The translations under genes were made by a program, and so were the position numbers. Below the pieces are notes generated by a model. That model did not search any database. It worked only from the letters and a program-made list of their open reading frames with translations, and was not told the DNA's origin. 64,000 bases of DNA from an uncultured Flavobacteriaceae bacterium (GTDB lineage: Bacteria; Bacteroidota; Bacteroidia; Flavobacteriales; Flavobacteriaceae), in assembly GCA_947493535.1 (NCBI GenBank), contig CANLRK010000001.1, forward strand, positions 248,001 through 312,000, read 5' to 3'. This document shows, piece by piece, positions 22,109 to 28,569 of this stretch (the stretch's first letter is position 1; the number at the start of each line of letters is the position of its first letter).

Positions 22109-22849
22109 TTGAAACTTTTTAATTACATAGGGCGCATATTTTACAGAATATGGTTCTACATTTTAGTAACTGTTCCTATTCTTGTTTTTTTTCCTTTATT
22201 ATTAGCTACTACGCTTAAGGATAAGTGGTATCCTTATTTTTTTAAACTTGCTAGATTATGGGCAAAGTTTATTTTATTAGGAATGGGGTTTAAAGTGAAG
22301 GTGAAAAATGAAGCTAAAATACTACCTGGAAAAAGCTATATGTTTATAGCTAATCACAGCTCTATGACAGATATTATGTTGATGCTTTCCGTTGTAAAAA
22401 ACCCTTTTGTTTTTGTAGGAAAAAAAGAGCTTGCTAAAATTCCAATTTTCGGTTTCTTTTATAAACGCACATGTATTTTAGTAGACAGAAGTAGTGCTAA
22501 AAGCAAAAAAGAAGTGTTTACTAGAGCTCAAAAAAGACTTAATGCAGGGCTTAGTATTTGTATTTTTCCTGAAGGAGGTGTTTTTGACAACTGTGATTTG
22601 GTGTGTGAATTCAAAAATGGAGCTTTCCGCTTAGCTATTGAACATCAAATACCTATTGCTCCAATGACATTTGCTGATAATTTTAAACGATTCCCATACG
22701 ATTTCCTTGCTGGTGGGTCGCCTGGTATAATGCGCGCTACAATTCATCAGCCAATTCCAACTGAAGGATTAGATTTAGCCTCAAGAGACCATTTAAAAAA
22801 TAATACCAGAGCCTTAATTTACAAGGAACTAAAAGACTACCACTATTAA
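22109..22849 (+). CDS. plsC: 1-acyl-sn-glycerol-3-phosphate acyltransferase
   Basis: 246 residues. The acyltransferase HX4D motif is in ANHSSMTDIML and the second motif in FPEGGVFDN. One or two membrane segments precede them (about 8-32). It adds the second acyl chain in phosphatidic-acid synthesis at the inner membrane. The start is TTG 22109: an in-frame stop lies 15 bp upstream and no ATG is nearby. The 3' end overlaps the convergent barrel-protein gene by 4 bp. Confidence 0.9.
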   Translation: MKLFNYIGRIFYRIWFYILVTVPILVFFPLLLATTLKDKWYPYFFKLARLWAKFILLGMGFKVKVKNEAKILPGKSYMFIANHSSMTDIMLMLSVVKNPFVFVGKKELAKIPIFGFFYKRTCILVDRSSAKSKKEVFTRAQKRLNAGLSICIFPEGGVFDNCDLVCEFKNGAFRLAIEHQIPIAPMTFADNFKRFPYDFLAGGSPGIMRATIHQPIPTEGLDLASRDHLKNNTRALIYKELKDYHY

Positions 22850-24618
22850 AACTTATAACTAAACCCAGTATACAAACCTAAGATGTAAGGTTTAAAATTA
22901 CCCGAATCGTTACTAAATGCATTTAACTGATACTTAAACATTGGTTCAAAATTAAAGTTAACACCTTTACTTATATTGTATTCAAACCCAAAACCTATGT
23001 TTGTACTGTATACCGTATTGTTAAGGTTATTAGCCTCTCCTATATAGGTAACCACTGAATTATTTTCTGAATAAATTTCATTTTTATTCAAGAAAAAAGA
23101 ACTCATTCCAGCAATAACATCTACTTTAAATTTCTTGTCAGATAATTTATAACTTAATTCCACAGGAACTTCTATATACCCCAAACGCTGATTTAAACTT
23201 GAATCAAATAACAACGAAAAAGATTCAGGAATTTGCGAAGCAGAATATGTAGTTGCACTCGCAATACTCATACTTGATGTAGGAGAGCTCATCGTTACAT
23301 TTTTAAGCCCCTTAACACCTGTTGTCTCATTACTTAGATATAGCGCAACACCTTCTGTATCATAACCTACTTCTAACTTATTTATTCCTGCACGTACACT
23401 AATTTTTTTATTAAGAGCATACCCTACACTAATACCGTAACTTGTAGTAAACTGTCCCTTTTTCTTATTCGCCGCCAGATCTCCATCTATTGGCGACCCA
23501 GAGGCTAAACTATTGTAGTACACAGGGGCTATATTAGGGCTTATATTCCATTTTCTAAACTCAACTATTTCAGAATTGTTTTCTTCTTTTTCGTCTTCCG
23601 TTTCTTGCTCAGCAATAGCCTCTTCAATTGTTTTTTCAACAGGAAGATCTTCCTCTACTTTTTCTTCTTCAATTACTTCATTATCTCGTTTTACAGAGGT
23701 GTTTTCTACCACAAGCTCTAAACTATCTTTTTTTATGTTTCCTATATGATTGTTTTTATTTACTATTTTATTAGTCAACTCTCCGGTTAAAGACTTATCT
23801 GTTTTACTCAAATTACTCATTGCAACTACACTCTCTTCTTCTTGCTGATTATTCAGTGGTGTAATTTCACTTTCTGTGTTTTTAGCTCTATCTACTAATA
23901 CTTTTTGTGCTTCTTTACTTCTGTTTTCTTCAGACTTAACTAACAAATAATCACTTGTTTTTTTATTATTATCTATTTCTTCATTAACTAAAAGTTGTTC
24001 ATGAATCACCTTTTCTTTCATTAGGTTATCTCCAGGTAAAACTTTATTTACTTTATTATTCTTTTCTTTTGCTTCATTATTCTCCGCAACATTTGCAGAG
24101 TTATTTTCTATTGCTACATTTTTATAAATAGAGGAATTTTCTTCTAATTTATTTTTTGACACTTGATTTAGGTTCGTATTATATTTTTTAAGTACGCTCT
24201 TACTAACTCCATTGTTATTAGGTGTTGTGTTAGAAGTTGATGCTACCGAAAACTCCTTTGTTTTAGACGACTCTAAATCACTCCCTGTAATTTCTTTAAA
24301 AGAAATATTCGTATTTACTTCTGCTTCTTGTTTGTTTTTATCAATTAGTATTGTCTTACCTATATTATTTGGAGCTTCAACTACTTCGTTTATTGTGTTG
24401 TTATCCGAAGAAAGTTGAAATACTAAAAATGTAACAAAAAAGACAATTGATGCTGCTATACCAGATAATTTAAACCACATAGGAATTATCTTTTTGTTAT
24501 CTGAATCTTGTTTATCTAGTTCTGATTGAATATTCTCCCATGCATTTTCTGGAGGGTTCTCATTAAACTCCTTAAAATGTTCTTGAAAAAAATTGTCTAT
24601 ATTCTTTTTATCTCCCAT
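22846..24618 (-). CDS. Anti-sigma-like protein fused to a C-terminal outer-membrane beta-barrel
   Basis: 590 residues. A short cytoplasmic N-terminus (1-45, with NPPENAWENIQSELDKQD, common before ECF-linked membrane regulators) precedes one membrane span (about 46-66), then about 280 residues of charged low-complexity linker rich in Asn, Lys and Glu, and a C-terminal region (about 350-590) that looks like a small outer-membrane beta-barrel ending in an aromatic residue (YTGFSYKF). It starts 3 bp after the ECF sigma gene, so it is probably its anti-sigma factor. A single chain would have to reach from inner to outer membrane. The function is inferred from context and architecture. Confidence 0.75.
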   Translation of the reverse strand: MGDKKNIDNFFQEHFKEFNENPPENAWENIQSELDKQDSDNKKIIPMWFKLSGIAASIVFFVTFLVFQLSSDNNTINEVVEAPNNIGKTILIDKNKQEAEVNTNISFKEITGSDLESSKTKEFSVASTSNTTPNNNGVSKSVLKKYNTNLNQVSKNKLEENSSIYKNVAIENNSANVAENNEAKEKNNKVNKVLPGDNLMKEKVIHEQLLVNEEIDNNKKTSDYLLVKSEENRSKEAQKVLVDRAKNTESEITPLNNQQEEESVVAMSNLSKTDKSLTGELTNKIVNKNNHIGNIKKDSLELVVENTSVKRDNEVIEEEKVEEDLPVEKTIEEAIAEQETEDEKEENNSEIVEFRKWNISPNIAPVYYNSLASGSPIDGDLAANKKKGQFTTSYGISVGYALNKKISVRAGINKLEVGYDTEGVALYLSNETTGVKGLKNVTMSSPTSSMSIASATTYSASQIPESFSLLFDSSLNQRLGYIEVPVELSYKLSDKKFKVDVIAGMSSFFLNKNEIYSENNSVVTYIGEANNLNNTVYSTNIGFGFEYNISKGVNFNFEPMFKYQLNAFSNDSGNFKPYILGLYTGFSYKF

Positions 24619-24621
24619 ATG

Positions 24622-25161
24622 CTATGGTGTTTGTTTTTTTATAAATTGATGCTCTTGTATTTTTTCTTTTAAAATACTTCTAGCTCGTGATAAATTTGAT
24701 TTTGAAGTGCCTACAGAGATGTTTAACAACTCTGCTATTTCTTTATGTGAATATTGATCTAAAACATACAAACTAAACACCAGACGATATTTATCTGGTA
24801 ACTGTTGCACGATATGTAATAAGAAATCAAGCGATACCAAGTCAGCATCTACTTCCACTACTTCTTCAATTACATTATCATCCTTTATTACATCTAAATT
24901 ACTTGATTTTCTATAGCGCTGTAAAGCAGTATTAATTACAATTCGTTTCATCCAACCCTCAAAGGAACCTTTACCTTTGTATTGTCCTATTTTTTTAAAA
25001 ATAGTTATAAAAGCGTCTTGTAAATTGTCTTGTGCTTCTGCGTAATTTTTTGAGTACTTCAAACATAAACTATATAACTGCTTGGCAAACATCCGGTATA
25101 ATTTACCTTGTGCTGCCCTGTCATTCTTTTTACATTTTATGATGAGTTGCTCTAAACTCAT
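24622..25161 (-). CDS. ECF-type RNA polymerase sigma factor
   Basis: 179 residues. Sigma region 2 (YSKNYAEAQDNLQDAFITIFKKI, about 35-60) binds core polymerase and -10 DNA; region 4 (YSHKEIAELLNISVGTSKSNLSRARSILK, about 135-165) is the -35-binding helix-turn-helix. It lies between a lipoprotein gene (18 bp upstream) and the anti-sigma/barrel gene (3 bp downstream), all co-oriented. This suggests a cell-envelope signalling operon; the signal and regulon are unknown. Confidence 0.93.
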   Translation of the reverse strand: MSLEQLIIKCKKNDRAAQGKLYRMFAKQLYSLCLKYSKNYAEAQDNLQDAFITIFKKIGQYKGKGSFEGWMKRIVINTALQRYRKSSNLDVIKDDNVIEEVVEVDADLVSLDFLLHIVQQLPDKYRLVFSLYVLDQYSHKEIAELLNISVGTSKSNLSRARSILKEKIQEHQFIKKQTP

Positions 25162-25179: not shown

Positions 25180-25599
25180 TTAATTAATGGTTGGCACTTC
25201 AATTACTTCATAAATATCTTCACCTAAATCGTCAACCCCTTTCCAAATATGAAATCTATATGTTTGGTCGTAAAGCACTTTAAAATCAAACGATTGTAAC
25301 ACTTCATTATTTTGTGTTAGCTGTTCGCAATTATTATCATTAAAAACAATACTTGTAACAGCCAATGTTCTGTTTTCATTTTCCGCATTTATATAAATGT
25401 TATAATACCCATGACATGATGTTGGTTGAAGGTACGTAAAATCAATAGTATATACTTCTCCTAAAACAAACTCATCAGGAAAAACAATACTCTCTATTGG
25501 TAAAACTTCATAATGATATTTTTCTTCATCATCGCCTAAGCTACACCCTGTCAACGCTATAATTGCCAGAGTTAGTAAAGCCTTTTTTATAAACTCCAT
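25180..25599 (-). CDS. Hypothetical lipoprotein upstream of the ECF sigma gene
   Basis: 139 residues. Lipoprotein signal peptide with lipobox LTGCS (Cys at about residue 19), followed by an acidic tail (SLGDDEEK) of the type seen on flavobacterial surface or outer-membrane lipoproteins. The mature part (about 120 residues) is predicted to be mainly beta-strand and has two further cysteines. I recognise no family. It is 18 bp upstream of the sigma gene and downstream of the recA terminator, so it may be the first gene of the sigma operon and could be its sensor or target. Confidence 0.75.
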   Translation of the reverse strand: MEFIKKALLTLAIIALTGCSLGDDEEKYHYEVLPIESIVFPDEFVLGEVYTIDFTYLQPTSCHGYYNIYINAENENRTLAVTSIVFNDNNCEQLTQNNEVLQSFDFKVLYDQTYRFHIWKGVDDLGEDIYEVIEVPTIN

Positions 25600-25670
25600 A
25601 TGTTTTATTTAAAATTTAAGCACTTGTTTAATAGATGTATAAAGTTACAAAAGGTTGCGTTTAAAACTAA

Positions 25671-25718: not shown

Positions 25719-26720
25719 CTATTTTTCAGCAATAGCAGCTACAATTTTTTCTTCTAATTCATCCATTAATTCTGGATTGTCTCTTAGTAGATTTTTAACC
25801 GCATCTCTACCTTGACCTAATTTAGTTTCACCATAACTAAACCAAGATCCGCTTTTCTTAATAATACCAAACTCAACACCCAAGTCAATTATCTCTCCTA
25901 CTTTTGATATTCCTTCGCCATACATAATATCGAATTCAGCTGTTTGAAACGGTGGAGCCACCTTGTTTTTAACAACTTTCACTCTAGTTTTATTACCTAT
26001 TACTTCGCTATCAGAATTTTTAATTTGAGTTGATCTTCTAATATCTATACGAACAGAAGAATAGAATTTTAAAGCATTACCTCCAGTAGTAGTTTCAGGG
26101 TTTCCAAACATAACTCCAATTTTCTCTCTTAATTGGTTTATGAAAATCACCGTACAATTTGTTTTATTAATTGTTCCAGTAAGTTTTCTTAACGCTTGTG
26201 ACATTAATCGGGCATGTAGTCCCATTTTGGAATCTCCCATTTCTCCTTCAATTTCACTTTTAGGAGTAAGTGCAGCAACCGAATCAATAACAACAATATC
26301 TATTGCACCAGAACGGATTAAGTTTTCAGCAATTTCTAAAGCTTGCTCACCATAGTCAGGTTGTGAAATAATTAAGTTATCAACATCTACACCTAGTTTT
26401 TCTGCATAAAAACGATCAAAAGCATGTTCAGCGTCAATAAAAGCAGCTATACCTCCTTTTTTCTGAGCCTCAGCTATAGCGTGAATAGTAAGAGTTGTTT
26501 TACCTGAAGATTCCGGACCGTATATTTCTATTATTCTTCCTCGTGGTATACCTCCAACCCCTAAAGCTAAATCTAACCCTAATGAACCTGTAGAAATAGC
26601 ATCAACTTCCTCTACTGCTTTATCGCCCATTTTCATTACAGCCCCTTTCCCATAAGCCTTGTCTAATTTATCTAAAGTAAGCTTTAACGCTTTTAATTTT
26701 GCTTCTTTTTCTGAACTCAT
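25719..26720 (-). CDS. recA: RecA recombinase
   Basis: 333 residues, normal for Bacteroidota RecA. Walker A GPESSGKT at 68-75, MAW-type region around FIDAEHAFD, Walker [20 protein letters not shown], and loop L2 [22 protein letters not shown]. It forms filaments on single-stranded DNA for recombination and the SOS response. It is monocistronic (terminator at 25671). An imperfect dyad with a near-consensus -7 box lies upstream at 26737-26752. Confidence 0.98.
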
Positions 26721-26736
26721 AATCCTATTTTTTAAT

Positions 26737-26752
26737 TAGTGCTAAAGTACTA
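26737..26752. promoter_or_regulatory. Imperfect dyad in the recA promoter region
   Basis: TAGTGC-TAAA-GTACTA, 5 of 6 bases symmetrical, lies 17-32 bp upstream of recA. It overlaps a minus-strand TACTTTAG that differs by one base from TAnnTTTG. It could be a damage-response operator. No regulator is known from this window. Confidence 0.35.
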
Positions 26753-26892
26753 TTTCTTTTTTAGAAAAATTAAGCTTATAAAAAGCTACTTATTAACAAG
26801 CCTAAATAAAAATAACTATTTCACGCAACCTTTTAAAAAACCTAACATCTATTTAATAAATAATAGTTTTATAAGTTAAGTTTAATTCATTT

Positions 26893-27110
26893 ATGAGGTT
26901 TTTAATTACTCATATTACAAATACCAAAAACGGCTCTACAACTGCCAATACATTAGTAAGTGGTTGTAAGTTAGATGGTGGTTAATGTTCGTTACCTTTT
27001 TAATACAGATGGTTTCTGGCAACACACGCTTAGAAAGCATCAATAAATTAAAAATTTAGTAACGAATTAGCCATAGAAAGCCTCTGTATACAAACAGGGG
27101 CTTTTTATAT
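26893..27110 (+). ncRNA. Candidate structured non-coding RNA between recA and ricT
   Basis: No convincing protein gene occupies 26721-27210 (490 bp). Four consecutive plus-strand structures can be drawn: stem 1, GAG+GTTTTT (26895-26903) with AAAAAC/CTC (26926-26936); stem 2, ACAACTGC (26938-26945) with GTGGTTGT (26960-26967), two G-U pairs; stem 3, TGGTTAA and TTCGTTAC (26979-26995) with GTAACGAA and TTAGCCA (27059-27073), 15 pairs with one 2-nt bulge, enclosing an inner hairpin GATGGTTTCT/AGAAAGCATC (27008-27017/27032-27041) with one mismatch; then a terminator. The RNA family was not identified; it does not look like 4.5S, tmRNA, RNase P or 6S RNA. Promoter unclear (TAAGTTTA at 26877 is one base off consensus). 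The rest of the interval shows nothing else. Confidence 0.55.
27077..27106 (+). terminator. Rho-independent terminator of the recA-ricT intergenic RNA
   Basis: AAAGCCTCTGT (27077-27087) pairs with ACAGGGGCTTT (27094-27104) with one G-U pair and a 6-nt loop, followed by TTTTT. No gene ends upstream of it on this strand, which implies a non-coding transcript. Confidence 0.8.
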
Positions 27111-27210
27111 TTTAAGCCTTATACTCTCATAGCTTACGAATAAATGATGTATATTTACCCTTAATATTTTTTTTAACGAATTTATGCCTTAAATAGGCTC
27201 TATATATAAT

Positions 27211-28569
27211 ATGGCGTGCAATAGTTGTGGCACTGGAAGTGACGGAAAACCAAAAGGTTGTAAAAGTAATGGAACCTGCTCCTCAGACAGTTGTAATAAA
27301 TTAACAGTTTTTGATTGGTTAGCAAACATGAGTTTGCCTAATGGACAAAAACCATTTAACTGTGTTGAAGTCCGCTTTAAAAACGGAAGAAAACACTATT
27401 ATAAAAATACCGAAAACCTTAGTCTTTCTATTGGTGATATTGTTGCTACAGAAGCATCACCAGGGCATGATGTAGGTATGGTAACTTTAACTGGAGAACT
27501 GGTTAAAGTACAAATGAAAAAGAAAAAAATTGCAGTTGATAGCGAAGATGTAAAAAAAGTTTATCGCAAAGCAACACAAAAAGATATTGATATTTGGACT
27601 GCTTCAAGAGATCGTGAAGAAGCTATGAAAGTACGCTCAAGACAATTAGCAATTGACCTCAACTTGAAAATGAAAATTTCTGACATTGAATTTCAAGGAG
27701 ACGGCTCTAAAGCTACTTTTTATTACACCGCCGAAGAGCGTGTTGATTTTAGGCAACTTATTAAAGAGTTTGCTAAAGAGTTTAACATTCGTATTGAAAT
27801 GCGTCAAATTGGTTTTCGTCAAGAAGCTGCGAGGCTTGGTGGAGTGGGATCGTGCGGAAGAGAATTATGCTGTTCTACATGGCTTACCGATTTTAGATCG
27901 GTAACAACAGCGGCTGCACGATACCAACAACTTTCTTTAAATCCACAAAAATTAGCTGGGCAATGCGGTAAGCTAAAGTGTTGTTTAAACTACGAATTAG
28001 ACTCATACCTAGATGCTTTACAAGATTTTCCTGACAAAAACATCAAACTAAAAACCAAAAGAGGTACTGCTGTCTCACAAAAAATAGATATTTTTAAAGG
28101 GCTTATTTGGTATGCCTATGAAGGAGAGTGGATGAACTGGCACAAAATAACCGCTCATGATGCAAATGAAATTATAAGTCAAAACAAAAAAGGGGTTGAA
28201 GTAGATAACTTAGAAGATTATGCTGCCGAATTAACTGAAGAAATTGTTACTGATTTTGAAAATGTTGTAGGTCAAGATAGTTTAACACGTTTTGATAAAC
28301 CTAAGCGTAAGAAAAGACGCAAACCACAAGCAAAAAGAGTTGCTAATAAAGGAACTGAAGCAAAAGACACTAATAAGAAGCCACAACAAAAACGAAGACC
28401 ACAAAGAAAAAACAGAAACAATAACGAAGGTTCAACTAAAAACACTGGACCACAAAATAAAAAAAGAAGACCGAATACTTCTGAGCAAAAAACAGGCAAA
28501 CGTCCGCAAAACAGACGTAAACCTCAAAACAATACAAAAAAAGACAATTCAACTAAAAACGATGCGTAA
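27211..28569 (+). CDS. ricT: RicT/PSP1-domain protein
   Basis: 452 residues. PSP1 C-terminal domain (about 60-290) with the conserved cysteine clusters GSCGRELCCSTWL and GQCGKLKCCLNYE that bind iron-sulphur in RicT; more cysteines lie at the N-terminus (NSCGTGS, KGCK, GTCSSDSC). The last 90 residues are a very basic, low-complexity Lys/Arg/Asn/Gln tail, likely RNA-binding or disordered. In Bacillus the RicAFT complex guides RNase Y; in Bacteroidota the role is unproven. It heads a plus-strand operon with gldH, PBP1A and scoAB, overlapping gldH by 8 bp. Confidence 0.9.
   Translation: MACNSCGTGSDGKPKGCKSNGTCSSDSCNKLTVFDWLANMSLPNGQKPFNCVEVRFKNGRKHYYKNTENLSLSIGDIVATEASPGHDVGMVTLTGELVKVQMKKKKIAVDSEDVKKVYRKATQKDIDIWTASRDREEAMKVRSRQLAIDLNLKMKISDIEFQGDGSKATFYYTAEERVDFRQLIKEFAKEFNIRIEMRQIGFRQEAARLGGVGSCGRELCCSTWLTDFRSVTTAAARYQQLSLNPQKLAGQCGKLKCCLNYELDSYLDALQDFPDKNIKLKTKRGTAVSQKIDIFKGLIWYAYEGEWMNWHKITAHDANEIISQNKKGVEVDNLEDYAAELTEEIVTDFENVVGQDSLTRFDKPKRKKRRKPQAKRVANKGTEAKDTNKKPQQKRRPQRKNRNNNEGSTKNTGPQNKKRRPNTSEQKTGKRPQNRRKPQNNTKKDNSTKNDA

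Follow-up and report, generated by a model that had tools for sequence, protein, structure and literature searches.

The intergenic region between recA and ricT in an uncultured marine member of the Flavobacteriaceae (GenBank assembly GCA_947493535.1, contig CANLRK010000001.1) carries a compact unit that combines a promoter motif, a conserved small open reading frame (ORF), covarying RNA stems and an intrinsic terminator. It lies in the window, by which we mean the whole 64,000-nucleotide stretch analysed (positions 248,001 to 312,000 of the contig), where the recA-ricT gap is 490 bp long. A preliminary description of this DNA had placed a structured RNA at 26893-27110 and had stated that the gap holds no protein gene; the latter statement does not stand, as a conserved 30-codon ORF begins exactly at 26893, the very start given for the RNA, and the unit begins earlier than described, with its own promoter motif. 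The features of the unit and its two flanking genes are the following:

26824-26852, plus strand: promoter motif of the unit, of the extracytoplasmic function (ECF) sigma type, class CGCAACC-N16-TCTAT.
26893-26985, plus strand: small ORF of 30 codons and a stop codon, with the translation MRFLITHITNTKNGSTTANTLVSGCKLDGG, recognised by in-frame conservation and by a ratio of non-synonymous to synonymous differences (pN/pS) that is lowest in this frame.
26937-26968, plus strand: ORF-internal stem of nine pairs (26937-26945 with 26960-26968), placed by the fold and by covariation of the homologous stem.
26979-27073, plus strand: stop-codon stem of 15 pairs with a 2-nt bulge (26979-26984 with 27068-27073, and 26987-26995 with 27059-27067).
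27008-27041, plus strand: inner hairpin enclosed by the stop-codon stem, predicted with 12 pairs.
27077-27106, plus strand: intrinsic terminator, present in the fold and covarying across species.
25719-26720, minus strand: recA, between the two ECF-type promoter motifs.
27211-28569, plus strand: ricT, the next gene 3' of the unit and outside it.

Alignment of four genomes of the genus shows that the frame at 26893-26985 is gapless and open in three of them, ending in C-K-x-D-G-G-stop, and the peptides of two congeneric relatives are 50 and 47% identical to that of the window. Within the wider group of 30-codon ORFs the C-terminal residues are strongly conserved: N22 in 90%, C25 in 94%, K26 in 88%, D28 in 98%, and both G29 and G30 in 100%. 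Among pairs of at least 70% identity, the 30-codon ORFs (n = 48) have an in-frame pN/pS of 0.42 against 0.95 and 0.71 in the remaining two frames, and a second group of 28-codon ORFs (n = 21) has 0.385 against 0.87 and 0.66. Third codon positions are the most variable in both groups, with only 8 and 12, respectively, of 10000 permutations as extreme. The signal persists in several parts of the ORF taken separately, with values of 0.33 against 0.77 and 0.88 for codons 14-30 of the 30-codon group, 0.40 against 0.91 and 0.57 for codons 14-28 of the Aquimarina type, and 0.41 against 0.78 and 0.82 for codons 2-13 of the Aquimarina-type group (20 sequences), whose N-terminus lies outside the stems. 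Differences in ORF length are whole codons, among units that had been chosen by their ORF. The 30-codon ORF thus looks to be under purifying selection, and the case for coding is good overall, being weak for codons 2-13 of the 30-codon group. For this genome the earlier suggestion of a purely non-coding small RNA is accordingly not supported.

A profile hidden Markov model (HMM) of the peptide, built from 19 rows (the window ORF and 18 relatives), matches 57 of 298 Flavobacteriaceae genomes, once in each, and these represent 44 of 236 genera. We examined 56 of the 57 matches, the window included and G318 left out: all 56 ORFs are divergent from recA, an ECF sigma factor gene was found in 54 of the loci, and trhO follows downstream in the same orientation in 48, no more than 400 nt from the start of the ORF in 44. 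The window's genus has no trhO between recA and ricT (26720-27211), where many relatives have it; in other Flavobacteriaceae in which the arrangement is visible, trhO mostly lies between recA and ricT, with the unit between recA and trhO (the relatives compared at ricT being the best 80 of 285). The unit has a single match in its own genome, and a repeat or mobile element was rejected on that ground.

The promoter motif reads CGCAACCTTTT-N12-ATCTAT in the window and ends 40 bases 5' of the ORF, and transcription is predicted from its position to start at about 26858-26862. Across loci an ECF-like form, CGCAACCTTTT-N-CATCT, stands upstream of the ORF. A second copy of the motif lies on the other side of recA, ahead of an operon for a lipoprotein, a sigma factor and a putative anti-sigma protein:

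25631-25659, minus strand: second ECF-type promoter motif, that of the lipoprotein-sigma-anti-sigma operon, found by pattern match.
25180-25599, minus strand: small lipoprotein gene, first in the sigma operon, without a Pfam or NCBIfam family at cut-off.
24622-25161, minus strand: ECF sigma factor, with Pfam domains Sigma70_r2 and Sigma70_r4_2 and with sigma70-ECF TIGR02937 above cut-off; the proposed activator of both promoters.
22846-24618, minus strand: putative anti-sigma protein that has a membrane segment and whose C-terminus resembles an outer-membrane barrel; its Pfam matches are below cut-off, and the assignment draws on position and a by-eye reading.

The pattern CGCAACC-N(12-20)-TCTAT, chosen only after the alignment was seen, has two matches in the 64 kb window, one at the unit and one at the sigma operon past recA, where 0.04 are expected. 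A looser pattern, GCAACC-N(15-17)-TCTAT, has five matches in the whole genome including these two, and the reversed pattern has one. The pair flanks recA in the relatives G001 and G002 as well, exactly on the unit side and with two mismatches on the operon side, and a tighter pattern with one mismatch allowed is found in at least 169 of 296 family genomes (reversed control, 1). In 54 of the 56 ORF loci, the window included, the unit motif lies within 250 nt upstream of the ORF, and the operon-side motif is present in 55 of the 56 by a looser pattern run with no control. The unit thus shares its motif with the sigma operon, as would be expected of an ECF-sigma-dependent transcript. Of 30 promoter loci inspected, 10 precede the unit and trhO and 7 the lipoprotein of the sigma operon; isolated sites stand ahead of other small lipoproteins (L237, L250) and of a SusD-like protein (L246), these products being named by eye. 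A tblastn match to the small lipoprotein at 25180-25599 lies beside recA in 49 of the 55 other loci, at 27-47% identity.

The segment 26893-27110 folds with a predicted energy of -67.5 kcal/mol, compared with -38.5 +/- 4.4 kcal/mol for 200 shuffled sequences, none of which is as low (z = -6.5); the opposite strand has z = -3.4. The fold includes 14 of the 15 pairs of the stop-codon stem together with the terminator stem, and in it the ORF stem is lengthened by pairing of 26932-26935 with 26969-26972. The stop codon at 26983-26985 sits in the 5' arm of the stop-codon stem, which agrees base by base with the 15-pair stem described previously. The inner hairpin described as having 10 pairs is present with 12; its sequence has not been seen outside the window's genus, most aligned rows having shorter loops, and a loop of comparable length occurs in the genus and in one other aligned row (L210). 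Similarly, the terminator is borne out by the fold and by its covariation, and what fails is the remark that no gene on that strand would need it, given the ORF. A simple consensus terminator scan of 26600-27400 lists none, including that at 27077-27106.

The strong structure claimed earlier, for which covariation in relatives had been named as the check, does covary. The set of units used was obtained by removing the false ORFs L058 and L073 and the duplicate genome L167, and the resulting 84 units become 79 once identical sequences are dropped; L178 was left out of the alignment of 78 of these 79 (the terminator assigned to it extended into a second hairpin) and of the arm-swap test (its 3' motif is absent), L004 is outside the 78-unit alignment, L219 and L220 are outside the counts, and L003, with a broken ORF, is in no covariation or coding count. 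When the 78 units are aligned by sequence only, 90.1% of cells in the stop stem are paired, falling to no more than 46.6% under slides of 1-3 columns; changes on both sides affect 32 cells, compared with 9.0 +/- 2.6 after shuffling (none of 500 reaching that count), and arms from the same unit form a duplex of -15.5 kcal/mol compared with -11.9 kcal/mol when swapped (0 of 10000 permutations as low). In the ORF stem (48 ORFs) 88.3% of cells are paired, slides pair 21 to 57.4%, 60 cells are changed on both sides compared with 13.4 +/- 5.6 (0 of 500), and own arms give -14.2 compared with -10.4 when swapped (0 of 5000 as low). RNAalifold predicts 12 pairs for the terminator in the 78 sequences, 11 of them changed on both sides. 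These structures were derived from the tested sequences themselves, so that the numbers lean in their favour, and because shuffles and swaps leave relatedness in, we regard the results of sliding, and the diversity of pair types, as the stronger argument. RNA structure in the unit is conserved beyond the needs of termination, and the maintenance of stems by compensatory change even inside the ORF argues for a role of the RNA itself.

A version of the unit without the ORF does seem to occur at this position in other lineages. We inspected 80 genomes from the roughly 240 without an HMM hit, taking the first HMM-negative ones in a listing ordered by likeness to the window's RecA (G227 and G296 skipped), so that the sample leans towards closer RecA proteins. 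The promoter motif lies upstream of recA in 46 of the 80 (reversed control 1, other strand 0), and the operon motif is found in 70 by the looser pattern, which had no control. A terminator-like hairpin, judged by a T run and fold energy with no control, follows the promoter in 45 of the 46, and by a simple ORF pattern 36 of these units have no such ORF and 9 have one. Among the 36, the sequence GCTATGAA is present in 23 (0.18 expected from shuffles) and ACTAACTC in 17 (0.06 expected); GCTATGAA is also present in 33 of 52 ORF-bearing units, and is absent from the window. That ORF-less units stand under the same promoter motif and end in a terminator-like hairpin suggests that the RNA itself matters.

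The ORF-less units take more than one form. Those at L254, L258, L260, L264, L288, L291, L295, L298, L313 and others are RNAs of about 90-115 nt behind the same promoter motif with a GCTAT(GAA) motif and mostly also CTA[AG]CTC, possibly a separate type of small RNA. Those at L261, L280, L283, L289, L320 and L333 have another layout, with ACTAACTC or a similar sequence near the 5' end followed by a GCTATGAA(A/G)AAG-like sequence, the flank of which seems, by eye, to pair with an upstream TGGTCATTTCC-like arm. Judged by eye, the ORF is recognisable and its frame broken in L028, L096 and L314, which keep the promoter motif and terminator, and in L048, in which no terminator was found; L286 has no promoter by the pattern used, an ORF ending in KLDGG, and a stop stem by eye. 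In a RecA tree of 136 rows, with poor branch support, ORF-bearing units fall on both sides of the midpoint with ORF-less ones among them; the ORF label requires 23 changes, compared with 45.7 when shuffled, and well-supported branches force only two. The tree fits repeated loss of an ancestral ORF, and does not prove it.

The reading we favor, at slightly better than even likelihood, is that the unit is an ECF-sigma-induced transcript of about 250 nt acting as a dual-function RNA, peptide message and regulatory RNA in one, and independent of ricT. The ORF is conserved, the stems covary, the promoter motif is shared, and the unit is linked to recA and to the sigma operon. On this basis, an ECF sigma factor freed by the putative membrane anti-sigma protein would transcribe both its own operon and the unit, and the RNA would end at the terminator ahead of ricT. 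It would encode the 30-residue peptide, which may act on a protein target, and fold into three conserved stems, in the ORF, around the stop codon and at the terminator; the structured RNA or its 3' part could act as a regulatory sRNA, and translation would compete with folding on each molecule. We infer from these sequences that transcription from the promoter is by this sigma factor, that translation of the ORF takes place, that envelope stress is the stimulus, and that the RNA works in trans. The promoter sites that lead to lipoproteins and to a SusD-like protein make an envelope-related response plausible.

Several observations weigh against this dual-function reading. The coding signal fades in codons 2-13 of the 30-codon group, where pN/pS is 0.56 against 1.14 and 0.645, and 0.647 against 1.08 and 0.653 when all pairs are taken unfiltered. 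The fourth congener, G003, keeps the C-terminal end and lacks the 5' part and start of the ORF and the -10 element of the promoter, and it is mismatched in the stop stem (this draft genome is 82% complete and 6% contaminated). Relatedness among the sequences inflates both the shuffle and the swap tests; the stop-stem pairs with a double change number only 6, an unremarkable figure compared with 4.0 +/- 1.0 (25 of 500), and of the 8 stop-stem pairs retained by RNAalifold only one is double-changed. The stop-stem gain is smaller inside classes sharing a 3' arm (-17.3 against -15.0, and -14.0 against -12.6), and one such class, of two, is reversed, with -20.1 for own and -21.9 for swapped arms. 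For the ORF stem, a slide of +3 still pairs 57.4% of cells, and a slide of -1 gives 9 double-changed pairs compared with 8 unslid. None of ten genomes of g146, a large genus, has the promoter motif within 600 nt upstream of recA, seven of the ten having the operon-side motif, and the shorter ORF-less RNAs may serve a different function. Complementarity between the unit and the sigma operon amounts to 741 shared 9-mers compared with 671 in the reversed control for 52 units, and 78 compared with 92 for 45 further units; antisense action on the sigma operon was rejected as showing no clear excess over the control.

No target emerged from this comparison, in keeping with the alternative that the unit is a sigma-ECF-controlled small mRNA with the peptide as its sole product, in which the stems stabilise the message, tune translation or set termination and nothing acts in trans. 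We give this appreciable weight, well short of even: the coding signal, the conserved C-terminus and the position of the stems (within the ORF, next to it and at the 3' terminus) all agree with it, whereas the 36 ORF-less units that keep the promoter motif and terminator-like hairpin do not, nor do 8-mers such as GCTATGAA common to ORF-less (23/36) and ORF-bearing (33/52) units, and compensatory change within the ORF would seem to need more than message stability. The same ORF-less RNAs, present at this place in several lineages, would suit a non-coding regulatory RNA whose ORF is a by-product of conserved structure, as would the covarying stem in the 3' half of the ORF and the weak coding signal at codons 2-13 of the 30-codon group. 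We nevertheless think this unlikely, as variation is greatest at third codon positions, pN/pS reaches its minimum in frame in both groups, the Aquimarina-type N-terminus outside the stems included, and lengths differ by whole codons (again among units chosen by ORF). A ribosome-gated regulator is improbable too; here translation as far as C-K-x-D-G-G-stop would hold a ribosome on the stop stem and melt the ORF stem, leaving either message or folded regulator, and the output of the sigma response would be set by the state of translation or by a ligand that the nascent peptide senses.

Two further alternatives turn on the neighbouring gene and on the peptide. A stem that contains a stop codon and adjoins a terminator resembles ribosome-controlled attenuators, and this resemblance, together with the presence of trhO downstream in the same orientation in 48 of 56 loci (44 of them at most 400 nt from the start of the ORF), raises the prospect of a leader that would control trhO, or in the window's genus ricT, through attenuation at the terminator. 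We regard this as very unlikely. The downstream gene varies between trhO and ricT while the unit remains beside recA; adjacency to ricT is not kept, trhO lying between in most visible loci outside the genus; the stop stem and terminator are separate and both covary, RNAalifold predicting no alternative pairing, where no special search was made; and TAnnTTTG-type promoters stand, by eye, ahead of trhO. The preliminary description had likewise argued for a stand-alone RNA and against a ricT riboswitch, and this part is supported, with an ECF-type promoter motif and terminator belonging to the unit. As to the peptide, an N-terminus with basic and aromatic residues, a middle section that is hydrophobic in some members, and a conserved Cys that begins the last six residues recall a lipoprotein-signal-like or secreted peptide from which the C-terminal CKADGG is released as a signal. 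This we hold to be highly doubtful: a lipobox-like sequence occurs in only 2 of 56 peptides, on which count a lipoprotein signal peptide was rejected, and 11-residue hydropathy reaches 1.6 in 35 of the 56, with a median of 1.2 in the 20 peptides of 28 residues, mostly from Aquimarina.

If the dual-function reading is true, the ECF-sigma response of a large family of marine bacteria includes a small RNA and peptide arm of its own, and the recA-adjacent ECF sigma factor gains a readable target and reporter. The unit would also be a compact case of coding sequence and RNA structure evolving under joint constraint, and a natural experiment in passage between small mRNA and regulatory RNA, since behind one promoter motif the ORF is present, broken or absent according to lineage.

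The unit matches no known family in the collections searched, in keeping with the earlier impression by eye. Rfam 15 gives no matches at the gathering threshold in the window or in the loci of nine relatives; sub-threshold matches to STnc260, rimP, Phe_leader and PyrR are far below gathering scores, lie mostly over the terminator, and were rejected. ARAGORN reports no transfer RNA or transfer-messenger RNA in the window. Three of the peptides have no Pfam match and a single sub-threshold NCBIfam hit (E 0.13), with none at curated cut-off. Model R1, which has the unit in its training set, scores it at 58 bits in the window, the next match reaching 30.5; its weaker genome hits, in 9 of 196 genomes of the order (E <= 0.001), were not used as evidence because R1 also scores ordinary terminators. 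A match of 41 bits in the same genome outside the window (L340, G000:C1:343950-344049) looks like the terminator of an unrelated gene.

No description of the unit was found in those parts of the literature that were searched, nor any study there of an ECF sigma factor beside recA. A term search of the main text of an article on peptides from bacterial small RNAs (PMC5521070) finds no Flavobacter- or Bacteroid- names. Closest among the papers found is the Flavobacterium transcriptome of Guerin et al. 2021 (PMC9723704), which reports, in its main text, small RNAs that include Rfp11, behind the ECF-type promoter motif SM6, and Rfp18, conserved in its genus; 'recA' is absent from that main text, and an identical RNA may yet be among those of that study. 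Like the unit, Rfp11 and Rfp18 are structured small RNAs of the Flavobacteriaceae, a likeness drawn from the description in that main text and not from sequence. The 6S-Flavo RNA (RF01685) is likewise a structured RNA of the same family of bacteria; the unit does not match its model, which has no match in the window and finds the genome's copy on another contig (G000:C6:82569-82676, 101.6 bits).

MicA, RybB and MicL are sigma-E-dependent small RNAs of enterobacteria. We place FoxJ of Fusobacterium (PMC11005410) in the same group. The unit resembles these, in a likeness drawn without sequence comparison, in being a short terminated RNA apparently driven by an ECF envelope-stress sigma factor, and differs in having a conserved ORF and in adjoining the sigma operon and recA. 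SgrS/SgrT is a dual-function RNA. So is VcdRP of Vibrio cholerae, in which VcdP has 29 residues and the regulatory part is separate (PMC8672173). The unit shares with both the pairing of a small RNA with a short ORF, and differs from them in phylum and in that base-pairing is only proposed for it; moreover, a covarying stem is built from its ORF, and the following stem takes in its stop codon. The kind of system, whether sigma-dependent small RNA or dual-function RNA, is already known, and it is the family and the extent to which ORF and covarying structure overlap that appear new.
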